DNA of 64,000 nt from Candidatus Cybelea septentrionalis (GTDB taxonomy: Bacteria; Vulcanimicrobiota; Vulcanimicrobiia; Vulcanimicrobiales; Vulcanimicrobiaceae): positions 1 through 64,000 of the forward strand of contig PMHJ01000023.1 in NCBI GenBank assembly GCA_003158175.1, written 5' to 3'. The notes below the pieces were generated by a model, which saw nothing but the letters and a program-made list of their open reading frames with translations, was not told the DNA's origin and did no database searches. The translations under genes and the position numbers were made by a program. Positions 7,274 through 27,442 of the stretch are shown piece after piece. The stretch's first letter is position 1. The number at the start of each line of letters is the position of its first letter.

Positions 7274-8131
7274 GTGACACTCTTGCGAGGGAGGCGCGAT
7301 GGCCTCGAAGTGACGTTGTCGCCCTATGACCTTGCCGGAGGGTTTGCGGAGCTGCAGGCTCGGCTTACCGAGCAGCCTAGCTTTTATCGCGGCGCCTCCG
7401 CAATCGTAAACTTCGGCGCCGCGTCACCCTCATCCGACGATCTCAGCCGGCTTCGCGATCTCCTCGAGGGCGCCGGGATCGCGTTGCGGGGTGTCGCGGG
7501 ATTCGACGAGGGGCTCGAGGGTTTAGCGCAACGCGAGGGGCTTTCGTTCGAATCACCGCGCGCGGAGCTCGAGCGGCGTCGCGCGATGCGGCCGCGCGAG
7601 GCCGCGCGGCTCTCGGATGCGGCACGCTCGCTCGTTGCCGACTTCGCCGGCGCGCGTGACGATATCGCGCAGCGCCGGCGGCGAGGCGAGGCAAGCGTAC
7701 CACGTCAGCAGCCCGATCCGCCCTCTGCTCTTCCGGCGCCGGCGCTGCACGCGGTCGAAGCGCCGCCGGCCACGCTCTACCACGCCGCGACCTTGCGAGG
7801 CGGACAAGTGCTTCACCATACCGGCAATATCGTCGTCGTCGGCGACGTTAATCCCGGCGCCGAGCTGCTAGCAACCGGCGACATCCTCGTCTTCGGACGG
7901 CTTGCCGGCATTGCTCACGCGGGCGCCCAAGGGGACGATAGCGCTCGGATCTACGCCCTCGACTTGGCTCCGACGCAGCTTCGCATCGCAACTTCGATCG
8001 CGGCCGACGCGGAGCCAAAAAAGCGGACGACGCCGGTGCCCGAAGCCGCGATTGCTCGCGACGGACGGATCGTCGTCCTCGCGCTGGACCGTCTCGGCGA
8101 GCTCGAAGATTCGGGAGCGGCGTCGACGTGA
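7274..8131 (+). CDS. minC: Septum site-determining protein MinC
   Basis: Inhibitor of FtsZ assembly, recruited to the membrane by MinD. The N-terminal domain (residues 1-100) fits MinC_N. A basic Arg/Ala-rich linker follows. The C-terminal domain (from about residue 175) is the right-handed beta-helix with LRGGQVLHHTGNIVVVGDVNPGAELLATGDI cut here into its signature pieces: RGGQ, GDVNPGAE and TGDILVFGRL. GTG at 7274 is preferred because a GGAGAG ribosome site sits 6 bases before it; ATG at 7244 would put the site too close. The stop overlaps minD by 4 bases. Confidence 0.9.
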   Translation: MTLLRGRRDGLEVTLSPYDLAGGFAELQARLTEQPSFYRGASAIVNFGAASPSSDDLSRLRDLLEGAGIALRGVAGFDEGLEGLAQREGLSFESPRAELERRRAMRPREAARLSDAARSLVADFAGARDDIAQRRRRGEASVPRQQPDPPSALPAPALHAVEAPPATLYHAATLRGGQVLHHTGNIVVVGDVNPGAELLATGDILVFGRLAGIAHAGAQGDDSARIYALDLAPTQLRIATSIAADAEPKKRTTPVPEAAIARDGRIVVLALDRLGELEDSGAAST

Positions 8132-8919
8132 AGGCGCGCAAAATCGTGGTGACGTCAGGCAAAGGCGGCGTCGGCAAGACGACGACCACCGCGAATCTCG
8201 GTGCCACGCTGGCAAAGCGCGGGAAGCGCGTCATTCTGATCGACGCGGACATCGGCTTGCGTAACCTAGATCTGGTGCTCGGGCTCGAAAAACGTATCGT
8301 TTTCGATTTAGTCGAAGTCGCCGAAGGACGCTGCCAGTTGCGTCAAGCCCTCATCAAAGACAAACGCTTTGAGTCACTGTCGATCTTGCCCGCCGCCCAG
8401 ACGAGGGAGAAGGACGCGATCTCGCTCCCGCAGTTTAGCGCAATCGTCGAGCTCGCCGCGGAGCAGGCCGACTACGTGCTGATCGATTGCCCGGCGGGCA
8501 TCGAAACCGGCTTTCGGAATGCCGTTGGTGGAGCGACCGAGGCCATCGTGGTCACAACTCCGGAAGTGAGTGCAATTCGAGACGCCGATCGCGTCGTCGG
8601 AAAGATCGCCGACGAAGGCAAGCCGATTCGCTTGATCATCAACCGGCTGCGACCCGAGATGGTACGCAGCGGCGACATGCTCTCGGTGGAGGACGTTTGC
8701 GAGGTGCTCGCAGTCGAGCTCTTAGGCGTCGTGCCTGACGACGAAGAGGTCATCGACACCACCAATCGCGGCGAGCCGATCGTATTGAACGATTCCAGTC
8801 GCCTTGGGGCAATCTACGACAAAATCGCTCGCCGATTAGAAGGCGAAATCGTGCCCTTCACCAACTTCGACGGCCAAGGTTTCTTCGGACGTCTCATCGA
8901 CGCGTTGAAAGCGGGGTAG
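8128..8919 (+). CDS. minD: Septum site-determining ATPase MinD, first copy
   Basis: Deviant Walker A ATPase that binds membrane as an ATP dimer and recruits MinC. The P-loop is GKGGVGKTTT near the N-terminus. IDADIGLRNLDLVLGLE and YVLIDCPAGIE give switch I and Walker B. The C-terminal end, GFFGRLIDALKAG, is an amphipathic membrane-targeting helix. The 263-residue length is typical. GTG at 8128 overlaps the minC stop. A second, clearly related minD follows 3 bases downstream, which is unusual; both copies keep every catalytic motif. Confidence 0.95.
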   Translation: MKARKIVVTSGKGGVGKTTTTANLGATLAKRGKRVILIDADIGLRNLDLVLGLEKRIVFDLVEVAEGRCQLRQALIKDKRFESLSILPAAQTREKDAISLPQFSAIVELAAEQADYVLIDCPAGIETGFRNAVGGATEAIVVTTPEVSAIRDADRVVGKIADEGKPIRLIINRLRPEMVRSGDMLSVEDVCEVLAVELLGVVPDDEEVIDTTNRGEPIVLNDSSRLGAIYDKIARRLEGEIVPFTNFDGQGFFGRLIDALKAG

Positions 8920-8922
8920 CGC

Positions 8923-9777
8923 GTGCAGCAAACACAAATCGTGCAAGACGAAGTCCAATCCAGCGCTCCCGCTCACCGATTGGGACGAGCGATCGTTTTG
9001 ACTTCGGGGAAAGGCGGCGTTGGAAAGACGACGACGACCGCCAATCTCGGTACGGCGCTTGCCCATCGCGGAGCACGCGTCGTCTTGGTCGATGCCGACG
9101 TCGGTCTTCGCAATCTGGACATCGTCTTAGGGCTGGAAAGCCGGGTCAAGCATCACTTGCTCGACGTTCTCGAAGAGCGCGCTTCTCTCGACGAGGCGTT
9201 GGTGCCCGGGAAGCACAGCGAACAGCTCTTCTTGCTCGCCGCAGCTCAGTCGCGTGAGAAGGACGAGGTGGATGCGGCGAAGATGAAAGCGCTGATTTCG
9301 AGCCTGCGCGAACGCTTCGACTACGTGCTCATCGACTGTCCCGCCGGAATCGAGTTGGGTTTTCGCAACGCGGTCGCCGGCGCGGACGAAGCCATCGTGA
9401 TCTGCACGCCCGAAGTCGCAGCCGTGCGCGACGTCGACCGCGTCGTCGGTTTGCTCGGCAATCGCTTCCGGCCGCAGCTCGTCATCAACCGGTTGCGCCC
9501 CAATCTCGTGAAGAAGGGCAAGATGCTTTCCGTTGAAGACGTCAACGCCATCCTGCGTCTCCCGCTGCTTGGCGTGATCGCCGACGAGCCCGACATTATC
9601 GTAACGACGAACCGTGGGGAACCGCTTGCTTTGCGTAAGGATACGCCGACCGGAGCCGCCTACCACGCGATTGCCGCACGCGTTGCCGGCGAAGACGTGC
9701 CTGCGCCGATGCCCGCGGCGCCCAAGGTGACGATCTTGGAACGTGTCGGCTCGCTCTTTGGAGCGAGGCGCGCATGA
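8923..9777 (+). CDS. minD: Septum site-determining ATPase MinD, second copy
   Basis: Paralogue of the preceding gene (284 residues). It has the same P-loop GKGGVGKTTT, DADVGLRNLDIVLGLE, and YVLIDCPAGIE motifs. It differs by a 23-residue N-terminal extension rich in Gln/Ser and by an Ala/Pro-rich linker before its C-terminal amphipathic helix (ILERVGSLFGARRA). Divergence between copies is spread over the whole protein, so this is an old duplication, not a recent tandem repeat. The start is GTG at 8923; the stop overlaps the minE ATG by 4 bases. Both ATPases are probably made together with MinC and MinE. Confidence 0.93.
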   Translation: MQQTQIVQDEVQSSAPAHRLGRAIVLTSGKGGVGKTTTTANLGTALAHRGARVVLVDADVGLRNLDIVLGLESRVKHHLLDVLEERASLDEALVPGKHSEQLFLLAAAQSREKDEVDAAKMKALISSLRERFDYVLIDCPAGIELGFRNAVAGADEAIVICTPEVAAVRDVDRVVGLLGNRFRPQLVINRLRPNLVKKGKMLSVEDVNAILRLPLLGVIADEPDIIVTTNRGEPLALRKDTPTGAAYHAIAARVAGEDVPAPMPAAPKVTILERVGSLFGARRA

Positions 9778-10178
9778 TCGACTTTCTCAAGAGGCTCTTC
9801 GGCCAGTCCAGCTCGAGCACGACCGCTAAGGAACGCTTGAGGCTCGTCTTGATGACGGATCATCTCGAGCTATCGCCGGAGTTGATCGAAGCGATGAAGA
9901 GAGATCTCGTCGACGTGATCTCGCGCCACGTCGAAGTCGATCGTGACAAGATCGAAGTCAACTTCGAACGGCAAGACAGCGCGCTGGCGCTGCTGGCAAA
10001 CATTCCGATCCTTTCCGTAAGCCGCCCCATCGGCAACCCCACGCTCGTGCCCGTGGAGACCGTGCCATCGCCTACCGCGCCCGACGTCGCGCAACCGCGC
10101 GTTCGTAAGCGTCGCCGCCGCGCGGCGAAAAAAGCAGCCGCCACGAGCGTGGCTCCGGCTTCCGCCGCAGCGCAATAG
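9774..10178 (+). CDS. minE: Cell division topological specificity factor MinE
   Basis: Stimulates MinD ATPase and drives Min patterning. The N-terminal amphipathic membrane helix is MIDFLKRLFG; the anti-MinCD segment includes AKERLRLVLMTDHLELSPE; the dimerisation domain includes VEVDRDKIEVNFERQD. The product has 134 residues, longer than the usual 80-90 because of a C-terminal Pro/Ala tail containing a basic cluster (RKRRRRAAKKAA). It overlaps the second minD by 4 bases. The basic tail could add nucleic-acid or membrane contacts, but that is speculation. Confidence 0.92.
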   Translation: MIDFLKRLFGQSSSSTTAKERLRLVLMTDHLELSPELIEAMKRDLVDVISRHVEVDRDKIEVNFERQDSALALLANIPILSVSRPIGNPTLVPVETVPSPTAPDVAQPRVRKRRRRAAKKAAATSVAPASAAAQ

Positions 10179-10192
10179 GAGATTTGCGTGCC

Positions 10193-10231
10193 CGCCATAG
10201 CCCTACAGGCTCCTAGGAGCCTCCTATGGCG
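10193..10231 (+). promoter_or_regulatory. Hairpin that buries the rodA ribosome site and start codon
   Basis: A perfect 16-bp palindrome (10207-10222) is nested inside an 8-bp outer stem (10193-10200 pairing with 10224-10231). The AGGAG ribosome site (10215-10219) lies in the inner stem and the ATG (10226-10228) in the outer stem. As RNA it would block initiation, so it may couple rodA to translation of the upstream genes or bind a regulator. The structure is seen directly; the function is inferred. Confidence 0.6.
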
Positions 10232-11359
10232 GTGACTGCATTTGGTAGCGGCGCAAGGCGCTACGTTCGAAACTTCAACTGGACGCTGGCTGTCGCCGGC
10301 ATCCTGATCGCATTGATCGGGTTGGTCTGCATTCGTTCCGCCGGATTGCATGCCGGCGATGCGGCCGGCGAGTTCAAAAAACAGATCCTGTACCTGGTGC
10401 TCGGCGTGGCGCTAATGCTCGGACTTTCGTTGGTCGATTATCGGACTTGGCAACGCTGGGCTCCGGCACTCTACATCGCCAATCTCGTCCTGCTGCTCTT
10501 CATCTTGCGTGGCGGCCACAGCGCAATGGGTGCGCAGCGCTGGATCTCGTTGGGACCGTTAGGAACTTTCCAACCTTCGGAACCGGCGAAGCTGTCCATC
10601 GCAATCGCGCTAGCGGCGGTGCTCTGCCGCGGGCGGTACGAAAATCTCCAAGACCTCTGGAAGCCACTTGCGACCGTGGCAATTCCCGCGCTCCTGATCC
10701 TCAAGCAGCCGGATCTCGGTACCTCGTTAGCTTTGGTGGCGGTGCTCACGGTAGAGCTCTTTCTCGCCCTGCCAAAACTCGGGGACTTTGCCATCTACGC
10801 GTTAGGAATGCTCGTCGTCGGGGCGGCGGCCGTCGGCACCAGCGCGGTTCTCAAGCCGTTCCAGCGCGCGCGGCTCTTCGTTTTTCTCAATCCCAAGGCC
10901 GACCCCGAAGGCTCGGGCTATAACCTCGCCCAGTCAAAGATCGCCGTCGGAAACGGCGAGTGGTTTGGGCGCGGAATGTACCACGGCACGCAAACGCAGT
11001 TGAACTTCGTTCCCGAACATTCGCGCGATTTTATCTTCACCGTGCTTGCGGAGGAATGGGGATTCGTCGGCACGATGATCGCGTTGGGACTCTACGCCGC
11101 AGTCCTCTACGCGGGAGTCCGCACGATGCTCGTCGCGCGTGACCGCTTCGGCTTCTTACTTGCCGGCGGGTTGGTCGGCATGCTGTTTTTTCACGTCCTC
11201 ATCAATGTCGGAATGACGGTGGGAATCATGCCGATCACGGGAATCCCGCTACCGTTCATGTCGTACGGCGGGTCGGCGATGCTCACGGATTTTGCTGCCC
11301 TGGGGATCCTCTTGAACATCTTTTCGCAACGGGACCGCAACGTCTTGGGCAACGCGTGA
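10226..11359 (+). CDS. rodA: Rod shape-determining peptidoglycan polymerase RodA (SEDS family)
   Basis: Glycosyltransferase that polymerises lipid II during elongation, working with a class B PBP. The 377-residue protein has about ten membrane segments. Family signatures are present: SLGPLGTFQPSEPAKL, GSGYNLAQSKIAVGNGEW, FVPEHSRDFIFTVLAEEWG and GIPLPFMSYGGSAM. RodA is favoured over FtsW because of length and the min/rne context, though the two are close. It lies 47 bases after minE and its start codon sits in a strong hairpin. No mreBCD genes are in view. Confidence 0.93.
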   Translation: MAVTAFGSGARRYVRNFNWTLAVAGILIALIGLVCIRSAGLHAGDAAGEFKKQILYLVLGVALMLGLSLVDYRTWQRWAPALYIANLVLLLFILRGGHSAMGAQRWISLGPLGTFQPSEPAKLSIAIALAAVLCRGRYENLQDLWKPLATVAIPALLILKQPDLGTSLALVAVLTVELFLALPKLGDFAIYALGMLVVGAAAVGTSAVLKPFQRARLFVFLNPKADPEGSGYNLAQSKIAVGNGEWFGRGMYHGTQTQLNFVPEHSRDFIFTVLAEEWGFVGTMIALGLYAAVLYAGVRTMLVARDRFGFLLAGGLVGMLFFHVLINVGMTVGIMPITGIPLPFMSYGGSAMLTDFAALGILLNIFSQRDRNVLGNA

Positions 11360-25335: not shown

Positions 25336-25358
25336 CTAGGAGCCTGTCGGGCTCCTAG
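25336..25358. terminator. Hairpin between convergent genes
   Basis: A perfect 9-bp stem (25336-25344 with 25350-25358) with a 5-base loop lies right after the plus-strand stop and over the stop codon of the minus-strand PQQ gene. It has no T tract. Its CTAGGAGCCT arm also occurs in the rodA start hairpin (10213-10222). Confidence 0.5.
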
Positions 25359-27442
25359 AGTCCGAAAACCACGAGCGTGGGTTTACCGGTGATCTTCCAC
25401 GCGACGAAGGAAGTGTTACCGCTTGCCACGGCGACGTATTGTTTACCGCCTGCGCGATACGTCACGATGCCGCCCGCCATGGCGCCTTTCGTGTCGTACC
25501 GGTAGAGGGCGTCGCCGGTCTTTGCGTCGAGTGCGAGGAACTCGCCGTTGAGATCGCCCGTAAAGACCAGACCGCCGGCAGTCGGCGTGAGCGCCGCGAT
25601 CATCGGTGTAGCCATCTTGACGTGCCACTTGGCGTTGCCGGTATCCGGGTCGATCGCGGTCGTCCAACCGTACGCCTTATCCATCGGATCGGGTAACGGA
25701 ATGCCTCCGCCGAAGCTGCCCACATGTGCTACGTTCGCAAGCTGGTTAATGTTGGTCATGCTTGGGCTTGCCGAACGCTTCACGGTTACGCACCAGTCGA
25801 CCGAGTTTACATACACGAGCTTCGTTGCCGGATTCCATGCAGCCCCGTTCCATTCGGAGCCACCGGTCACGCCGGGGCAGTAATGCGTACCCGACGGGGT
25901 GATCGGGGCCCCGGCATTAGCGATGGTCGTGGTGGGGGTCTTCGTCAGGAGCCTCCCGTTCGTACGGTCGAGCAGATGCACGATGCCGTCTTTGCTAGTG
26001 GCGGCCAGCAGCTCGCGGCCGCCGGCTACGTCGAACAGCGCGGCGCCCGTGGCGTCCCAGTCGTGGTCGTCATTCGGTTCGGTTTGATACGACCAGCGCA
26101 GCTTTCCGGTACGCGCGTCGAGCGCGACGATTCCGGTCGTGAAAAGATTGGCGCCCTTGCGTTGCGTGGAATCGAAATCCGGCCCCGGATTGCCGACCGG
26201 CGCAAAGATCGTACCCGTCTTCGGATCGAGCGCGAAGTACGTCCAGATGCCTCCGCCGCCGTGCACTGCTGCGCTGCGAGGTTGCCAGCTCTTCGCACCG
26301 CTTTCGTCGTTGGTCGGAATGGAAGAGAAACTCCATACTTTCGTTCCGTCGCTTACGCGAAACGCCATGAACTCACCGCGCACGCCGACGTCGCCGCCCG
26401 CCTTGGGCATGAAGACGAGCCCGTTCCAGATGAGAGGGGCGGCCAGAGCCGACGCCCCGGCGCTCGAGTTCATGATTTTGCGGTCCCAGAGGACGTTCCC
26501 CGTCTTGATGTCGAGCGCGATCAGATGACCGTCGACCGTACCGCGGATGGCGCGCCCGCCTCCGATTGCCACGCCTTTATTGTTAGCCCCCGCCGCGATA
26601 TCGGTCGCGGTGTACTTGTAGCTCCAAAGCTTTGCGCACGTACGCCCGTCAACTGCGAACGTTCCGCTGGTGGTCGTAACGTAGAGAATGCCCTTGTAGG
26701 CAACGGGGCTACCCTCGAACGAACCTCCGGGCGCGAGTTCGACCGAGCATAGTGGTTTCAGCCGCGTCACATTGGCCGTCGAGATCTGCGAGAGAGCAGA
26801 GTAACGCGATGCGCGGTAGCCCTTTCCGTACGCGAGCCAGTTGTCGGCATCGGTGTCGGCCCGATCCAGCTCCTGTTGCGACGGAGTGCTGGTTGAAGGT
26901 TGCCGCACGATCATTGGCGTCGGAGCGGCGGTGGGCGCCGCCTGCGCCGTTGCTGCACCCGGCGCGGCCGACGGGATGATGCGTGACGTGTCATAGTGAC
27001 CGACGATCGGCGATGCTCCCTCGGGGAAGCCGTTCTGCCGGAGGATAAAGGCGACCAGCGCGAGAGAATCGGCATTCGGGAGCGACGACGGTGCATTGAG
27101 CGGCATCTCCGTGTGCACGTCGTACCACAACTGGCTGAGCGGTTTTCCCCCGAAGCGAAGGAAGAACTGTTTGCCTGCAAGCGCCGGACCGGCGCCGCCT
27201 TGCAGCTTCGCGCCGTGACAGACCGCGCACTTTTGCCCGAACAGCGTCGCGCCTTGCGCCGCCTGATCGCTCGAGTACCAGCCTTCGGCTCCGGTCGATC
27301 CTGCCAACGATCTCGCGCCACCCGTCGCCGCGGTTGGCGAGTTGCTAACGCCGGCGGCGTGCGCCGCGCAGCCCGATACCCCAACGGCAATCATCGCGAT
27401 TGTCGCCGGCCATGCCAAGGGGCGTCGTCCGAGAGGTATCAT
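25355..27442 (-). CDS. PQQ-type beta-propeller lipoprotein with N-terminal cytochrome c
   Basis: A 695-residue predicted quinoprotein dehydrogenase. The N-terminus is a lipoprotein signal (lipobox VSGC, C25). A cytochrome c domain carries the heme site C72-A-V-C75-H76. From about residue 195 a PQQ propeller follows, with recurring GxLxALDxxTG-type strands and the family segment DDHDWDATG. Such enzymes oxidise alcohols, sugars or aldehydes and pass electrons to the heme. In known PQQ alcohol dehydrogenases the heme domain is usually C-terminal, so this order is noteworthy. AAAGG lies 7 bases before the ATG. Confidence 0.82.
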   Translation of the reverse strand: MIPLGRRPLAWPATIAMIAVGVSGCAAHAAGVSNSPTAATGGARSLAGSTGAEGWYSSDQAAQGATLFGQKCAVCHGAKLQGGAGPALAGKQFFLRFGGKPLSQLWYDVHTEMPLNAPSSLPNADSLALVAFILRQNGFPEGASPIVGHYDTSRIIPSAAPGAATAQAAPTAAPTPMIVRQPSTSTPSQQELDRADTDADNWLAYGKGYRASRYSALSQISTANVTRLKPLCSVELAPGGSFEGSPVAYKGILYVTTTSGTFAVDGRTCAKLWSYKYTATDIAAGANNKGVAIGGGRAIRGTVDGHLIALDIKTGNVLWDRKIMNSSAGASALAAPLIWNGLVFMPKAGGDVGVRGEFMAFRVSDGTKVWSFSSIPTNDESGAKSWQPRSAAVHGGGGIWTYFALDPKTGTIFAPVGNPGPDFDSTQRKGANLFTTGIVALDARTGKLRWSYQTEPNDDHDWDATGAALFDVAGGRELLAATSKDGIVHLLDRTNGRLLTKTPTTTIANAGAPITPSGTHYCPGVTGGSEWNGAAWNPATKLVYVNSVDWCVTVKRSASPSMTNINQLANVAHVGSFGGGIPLPDPMDKAYGWTTAIDPDTGNAKWHVKMATPMIAALTPTAGGLVFTGDLNGEFLALDAKTGDALYRYDTKGAMAGGIVTYRAGGKQYVAVASGNTSFVAWKITGKPTLVVFGL

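Follow-up and report, generated by a model that had tools for sequence, protein, structure and literature searches.

The start of rodA in the window (the whole 64,000-nucleotide stretch analyzed, from the Candidatus Cybelea septentrionalis genome G000) is enclosed by an outer stem and an inner palindrome that together span both its Shine-Dalgarno motif AGGAG and its ATG, raising the question of whether these sequences form a control element for rodA, as proposed in an earlier note, or have some other origin. The hairpin is real, but its cause looks ordinary: it resembles an insertion scar left by the decayed end of a miniature transposable element (MITE) rather than a conserved control switch, and the earlier note overlooked the mobile-element origin of its left half. 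The first usable ATG of rodA is at 10226, with the frame closed upstream by an in-frame TAG at 10214-10216 (frame read by eye); the locus features are collected in Table 1. There are no Rfam matches up to E=1 within 9700-10700, no promoter-like site was found, and the sole terminator-like site (10140-10153, minus strand) is away from the hairpin. Two neighboring minD-like genes (8128-8919 and 8923-9777) lie between minC and minE and share 58% identity over 240 aligned positions.

Table 1. Features of the minE-rodA region and of a possible second remnant in the window
Feature	Position	Strand	Basis
minE, stop TAG at 10176-10178	9774..10178	+	PF03776 E=1.9e-21
Possible 15-codon leader frame GTG...TGA across the hairpin; absent in G014 and G009	10188..10235	+	By eye
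Outer stem, left arm	10192..10200	+	Arm complementarity check
22-nt right end of the 166-bp MITE (terminal inverted repeat plus TA)	10194..10215	+	Exact match to other copies
17 nt interrupting a sequence continuous in G014	10197..10213	+	Orthologous spacers; G009 alignment less clear
Perfect 16-bp palindrome: element end, TA, and host GGAGCCT	10207..10222	.	Complementarity; comparable junctions at other element ends
TA in CTAG, would-be one copy of the target-site duplication	10214..10215	.	TA flanks of copies; clean empty site elsewhere
AGGAG, likely rodA Shine-Dalgarno, 6 nt before the ATG	10215..10219	+	Motif read by eye
Outer stem, right arm, rodA ATG inside	10224..10232	+	Arm complementarity check
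rodA (FtsW/RodA/SpoVE family)	10226..11359	+	PF01098 E=2.4e-95
21-nt hairpin of two collapsed element-like ends, flanked by convergent frames; perhaps a second remnant	25337..25357	.	

The outer stem is 9 bp long and complementary at 9/9 positions, where the earlier note had counted 8 bp, and the loopless inner palindrome is perfect at 16/16 positions, as claimed. RNA folding reproduces the proposed hairpin, and its strength varies with the length of the stretch folded. Over 10150-10260, for which folding had been suggested, the hairpin forms but the stretch is unremarkable relative to shuffled sequences (z = -1.21; 27/200 shuffles equally good), whereas 10179-10250 gives z = -2.39 (2/200) and the segment from -36 to +10 of the G000 rodA start gives z = -3.19. 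At the RNA level the center of the palindrome becomes 6 bp with a CUAG tetraloop, which places two Shine-Dalgarno bases in the loop. Taken alone, the 16-bp palindrome is ordinary and present at chance frequency, with 3 perfect palindromes of at least 16 bp in the window compared to a mean of 2.9 (range, 1 to 7) in 30 simulated windows.

The hairpin has a dispersed repeat on its left side. The 22 nt at 10194-10215 occur exactly at five other places in four related genomes, and allowing up to 3 mismatches gives 43 places (6 of them exact, both counts including the rodA copy) spread over 10 of 41 genomes, whereas a reversed-pattern control has one match in the 41 genomes. By simple arithmetic with equal base use, an exact 22-mer is expected about 4e-7 times per 3.19 Mb. 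A DNA search with the region returns same-genus matches of 22 to 29 nt, all within 10192-10222. Because the arm is such a repeat, a template-switch mutation was dropped as the origin of the inverted arm. Eighteen of the 43 places make nine inverted pairs, six of which are 144 to 145 bp apart (counted by eye), and the number of pairs rises if more divergence is allowed in the second end; the 22-nt repeats bound a unit of ∼166 bp.

With the G000 copy as the query, the 166-bp unit has matches, some of them partial, in 12/41 genomes, including 10/18 of the Eremiobacterota genus. G008 has the most matches, with 17. The G000 copy, on contig C23, is 166 bp long with ends identical over 22/22 nt, and the complete 166 nt fold as a single hairpin of -84.2 kcal/mol (the sole copy folded whole). 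It does not code for its own transposase, the longest stop-free stretch being 54 codons, and no known RNA families were found in five element-bearing loci. A second MITE type in G000 has similar tips and another interior (L158, G000:C47:5522-5691; L141, G000:C32 near 22346). Units of ∼162 bp between TAs are also present in the Sedimenticola-labelled MAGs S144 (L174-L176, L183, L197, L202-L204, and L206) and CSMAG_163 (L187); their outer 19 nt are similar to those of the MITE, mostly with one mismatch, but the interiors are unrelated, reflecting either cross-phylum use of similar ends or mixed bins.

The flanks of these units and the comparison of orthologous sites show the marks of mobility. 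Among 34 distinct full-length copies (ends within 2 mismatches and length of 150 to 175 in the fetched loci), TA is present on both sides of 25, on one side of 8, and on neither side of 1; the base outside the left TA is C in 26/30 and that outside the right TA is G in 25/28. Many of the loci were fetched by patterns that include TA at one tip, which biases the counts there and leaves just the opposite tip and the outer bases free of bias. Twelve of the 34 match in their ends only (11 from Sedimenticola-labelled MAGs and one of the second type in G000), and with these excluded, the family proper has TA on both sides in 18/22 copies (counted by eye). At locus B (on C23), a full element in G000 corresponds to a clean empty site, CCTAGCG with a single TA, in G016; the G009 and G005 copies have most of the body deleted and the right end kept, and G014 lacks both the element and the CTAG. 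At locus A, a left end alone is found in G014, at a TA where G009, G000, G016, and G007 have an empty site (G008 is too divergent). Together, the two loci indicate that complete elements insert at TA and are later reduced to single ends. The 166-bp family is a MITE family by its near-identical inverted ends, TA duplication, presence or absence among relatives, and lack of a transposase.

A candidate for the mobilizing enzyme is found in one of the related genomes. DUF772 matches are present in 4/31 genomes, and the G008 match, 467 aa long, is an IS1182-family transposase (NF033551, 280.3 bits; cutoff, 270) within a 1.55-kb element bordered by C-TA and TA-G. Its outer ends are similar but not identical to those of the MITE: against a degenerate 15-nt end pattern, one has 2 mismatches and the other 1. 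Judging by these ends, an IS1182-family transposase whose element has matching tips is the probable mover of the MITE, although the link is through a single insertion sequence, from one genome among the 31. Contig ends truncate several of the other DUF772 loci, and in their fetched flanks no end has fewer than 4 mismatches. IS630 transposases (DDE_3) were considered because of the TA duplication and rejected; they are over the cutoff in 2/31 genomes, G000 not among them, and the fetched flanks, several again cut by contig ends, have no end closer than 4 mismatches. G000 itself (94% complete) has no DUF772 or DDE_3 match, and its copies are therefore likely to be stranded, unless the missing part of the genome carries the gene.

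At rodA only the right end of the element is present, making the copy a remnant and not an element. The minE-rodA spacer reads GCC-TAGGAGCC in G014 and GCC-17 nt-TAGGAGCC in G000, and the 17 nt are missing from this position also in G009, G016, G005, and the other orthologous spacers compared (the G008 contig ends inside rodA), such that the element end here is seen in G000 only. The G009 spacer can be aligned in two ways, and as G009 and G014 differ, either could model the sequence before insertion. The junction is of a kind found elsewhere: a full element in G007 is followed by host TAGGAGCC, giving a similar junction palindrome, and at loci L176 and L212 the element ends adjoin GGAGYC or its complement. 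The palindrome is perfect because the host GGAGCCT that follows the TA resembles the element tip, and it is the GCCATAG on the inner side of the element end that allows pairing with the CTATGGC at the start of rodA. We are confident, short of certainty, that the decayed right end of the 166-bp palindromic MITE, inserted before the rodA Shine-Dalgarno, makes up the hairpin's left side. A copy would have inserted at CTAG directly before this motif, and its body would then have been deleted, perhaps via a short GCC repeat, with the right end alone left behind; this order of insertion and deletion is deduced from one end, the left half being gone. Joining of the element end, the TA, and the host GGAGCCT would have created the palindrome, while GCCATAG came to pair with the rodA start. 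An older collapsed element in the G009 and G014 spacers (TAGGAG...CTCC-TA or similar) is a guess from a few nucleotides per end. Elsewhere in the window, the 21-nt hairpin at 25337-25357 by its position gives a TAG stop to the minus-strand frame at 25355-27442.

The predicted consequence of the scar is lower ribosome access to the rodA start in the G000 lineage. Opening the segment from -15 to +6 of rodA is calculated to cost 18.8 kcal/mol, tied for the highest value among the window's 51 starts (mean, 10.7; standard deviation, 3.7), with long non-overlapping frames taken as genes, and 14 other rodA orthologues have values of 4.6 to 17.1, all below that of G000. The mean unpaired probability of the start codon is 0.00 in G000 compared to 0.19 to 0.79 at the aligned start of 13 orthologues. 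Deletion of the 17 nt in silico reduces the opening cost to 15.0 and raises the ATG unpaired probability to 0.35, and by this model the rodA start would have been partly masked beforehand, with the masking deepened by the insertion. In G012 and G014 the aligned rodA start used for the opening, folding, pairing, and gap figures is not an ordinary start codon. G014 (L002, around 1498) has ATC where several relatives read ATG, which is either a GTG start two codons further on or an assembly error. The earlier proposal is thus supported as far as predicted masking of the start goes, whereas an evolved, conserved switch is not supported. The suggested opening by ribosomes leaving minE is weak: the stem starts 14 nt past the minE stop, close to where the footprint of a terminating ribosome would end.

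A conserved regulatory hairpin was rejected, since pair counts and per-genome shuffles, taken as a whole, give it no support. The inner palindrome is missing in the four nearest relatives, and in an alignment of five sequences none of the pairs has changed at both partners and covariation scores no higher than in shuffles, an outcome that the earlier note itself had set against its proposal. A narrower reading is that a translational-control hairpin, with rodA translated mainly once ribosomes coming from minE open it, is old in the five-genome group and was remodelled by the element end in G000. We consider this unlikely, although it accounts for several observations, among them that G016 and G005 have start hairpins with no recognizable element end, which counts against a scar. 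Their start regions, like that of G000, beat shuffles from -36 to +10 (z = -3.18 and -3.87, respectively), the minE-rodA gap is long in the five genomes (31 to 47 nt, compared to 6 to 13 nt in nine others, where direct coupling is likely), and the RNAalifold consensus includes one pair double-changed in one sequence; together, the hairpins, gap, and double change leave room for an older structure. In this reading the rodA start would pair with an upstream CYGCC and the Shine-Dalgarno with a TCC directly preceding the ATG; the RNAalifold consensus contains the five basal pairs and a stem of Shine-Dalgarno and TCC. The basal pairs form in 24/25 cells of the five-genome alignment, in which the G014 row is misaligned at the left arm, with 4/5 basal pairs either way (by eye). 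However, G014 (z = +1.28) and G009 (z = +0.38), two of the closest relatives, have no such fold, none of nine other genomes of the genus has a significant start hairpin, and the G000 structure itself contains no double-sided changes. The RNAalifold covariation term is unfavorable (+0.92), the 3′ arm is coding sequence and fixed for other reasons, and in a wider context the start is 0.34 to 0.41 unpaired in G016, G005, and G009.

A variant of the switch proposal, in which the element end was co-opted as the 5′ arm of a switch tying RodA synthesis to minE translation and replacing an older, different hairpin, is improbable. The ATAG of the element end extends the pairing of the rodA start so well that selection may have had some part. 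Still less probable is a REP or REPIN element, for which a RAYT (Y1) transposase would have done the moving, in place of a DDE-type MITE: the repeat does have short inverted pairs, often separated by ∼144 bp, within a unit capable of hairpin folding, but the Y1 transposase (PF01797) is found in 0/18 genomes of the genus compared to 5/14 controls, and the TA duplication and the DDE-type insertion sequence with matching ends argue against it. Least credible is binding of a dimeric regulator to the palindrome as DNA to connect division with elongation, a form of the earlier protein-binding suggestion. Perfect 16-bp symmetry near a gene start is in its favor, but it conflicts with the chance frequency of such palindromes, the absence of this one from the orthologous position of the four nearest relatives, the apparently separate origins of its two halves, and its single occurrence in G000 (search with up to 1 mismatch), which gives no support to a binding site shared by a regulon.

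The scar reading of the rodA hairpin illustrates that a decayed mobile element can yield a striking start-codon hairpin, and a palindrome over a start codon calls for a search for mobile-element ends before it is read as regulatory. It also defines a MITE family in a little-studied uncultured phylum, with a candidate IS1182 mobilizer and a visible series of decay. A full-text search of the open-licence literature found no report of MITEs or IS1182 in Eremiobacterota; the element family is new, but its kind is well known.

REP and REPIN elements are likewise inverted pairs able to form hairpins, but they are moved by RAYT transposases, and no Y1 transposase match is present in the 18 genomes of the genus that harbors the 166-bp family. 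The IS1182 family is closer, with a full element in the sister genome G008 that has matching outer ends, and with the CTAG target being palindromic; IS1272, of this family, replaces stem-loops, and some IS1182 members target palindromes (PMC5678879). The MITE differs in that it has no transposase, and its only clean empty site reveals duplication of TA and not the stem-loop replacement described for IS1272 (PMC5678879). MITEPsy1 of Pseudomonas syringae, at 100 nt, has other ends and a reported 4-nt duplication of CTAG or YTAA (PMC3189936), whereas copies of the 166-bp family fit a TA duplication and at rodA no more than a 22-nt remnant is left. Both are nevertheless short, with inverted ends, several copies, CTAG-like targets, and a suspected origin from an insertion sequence (PMC3189936).
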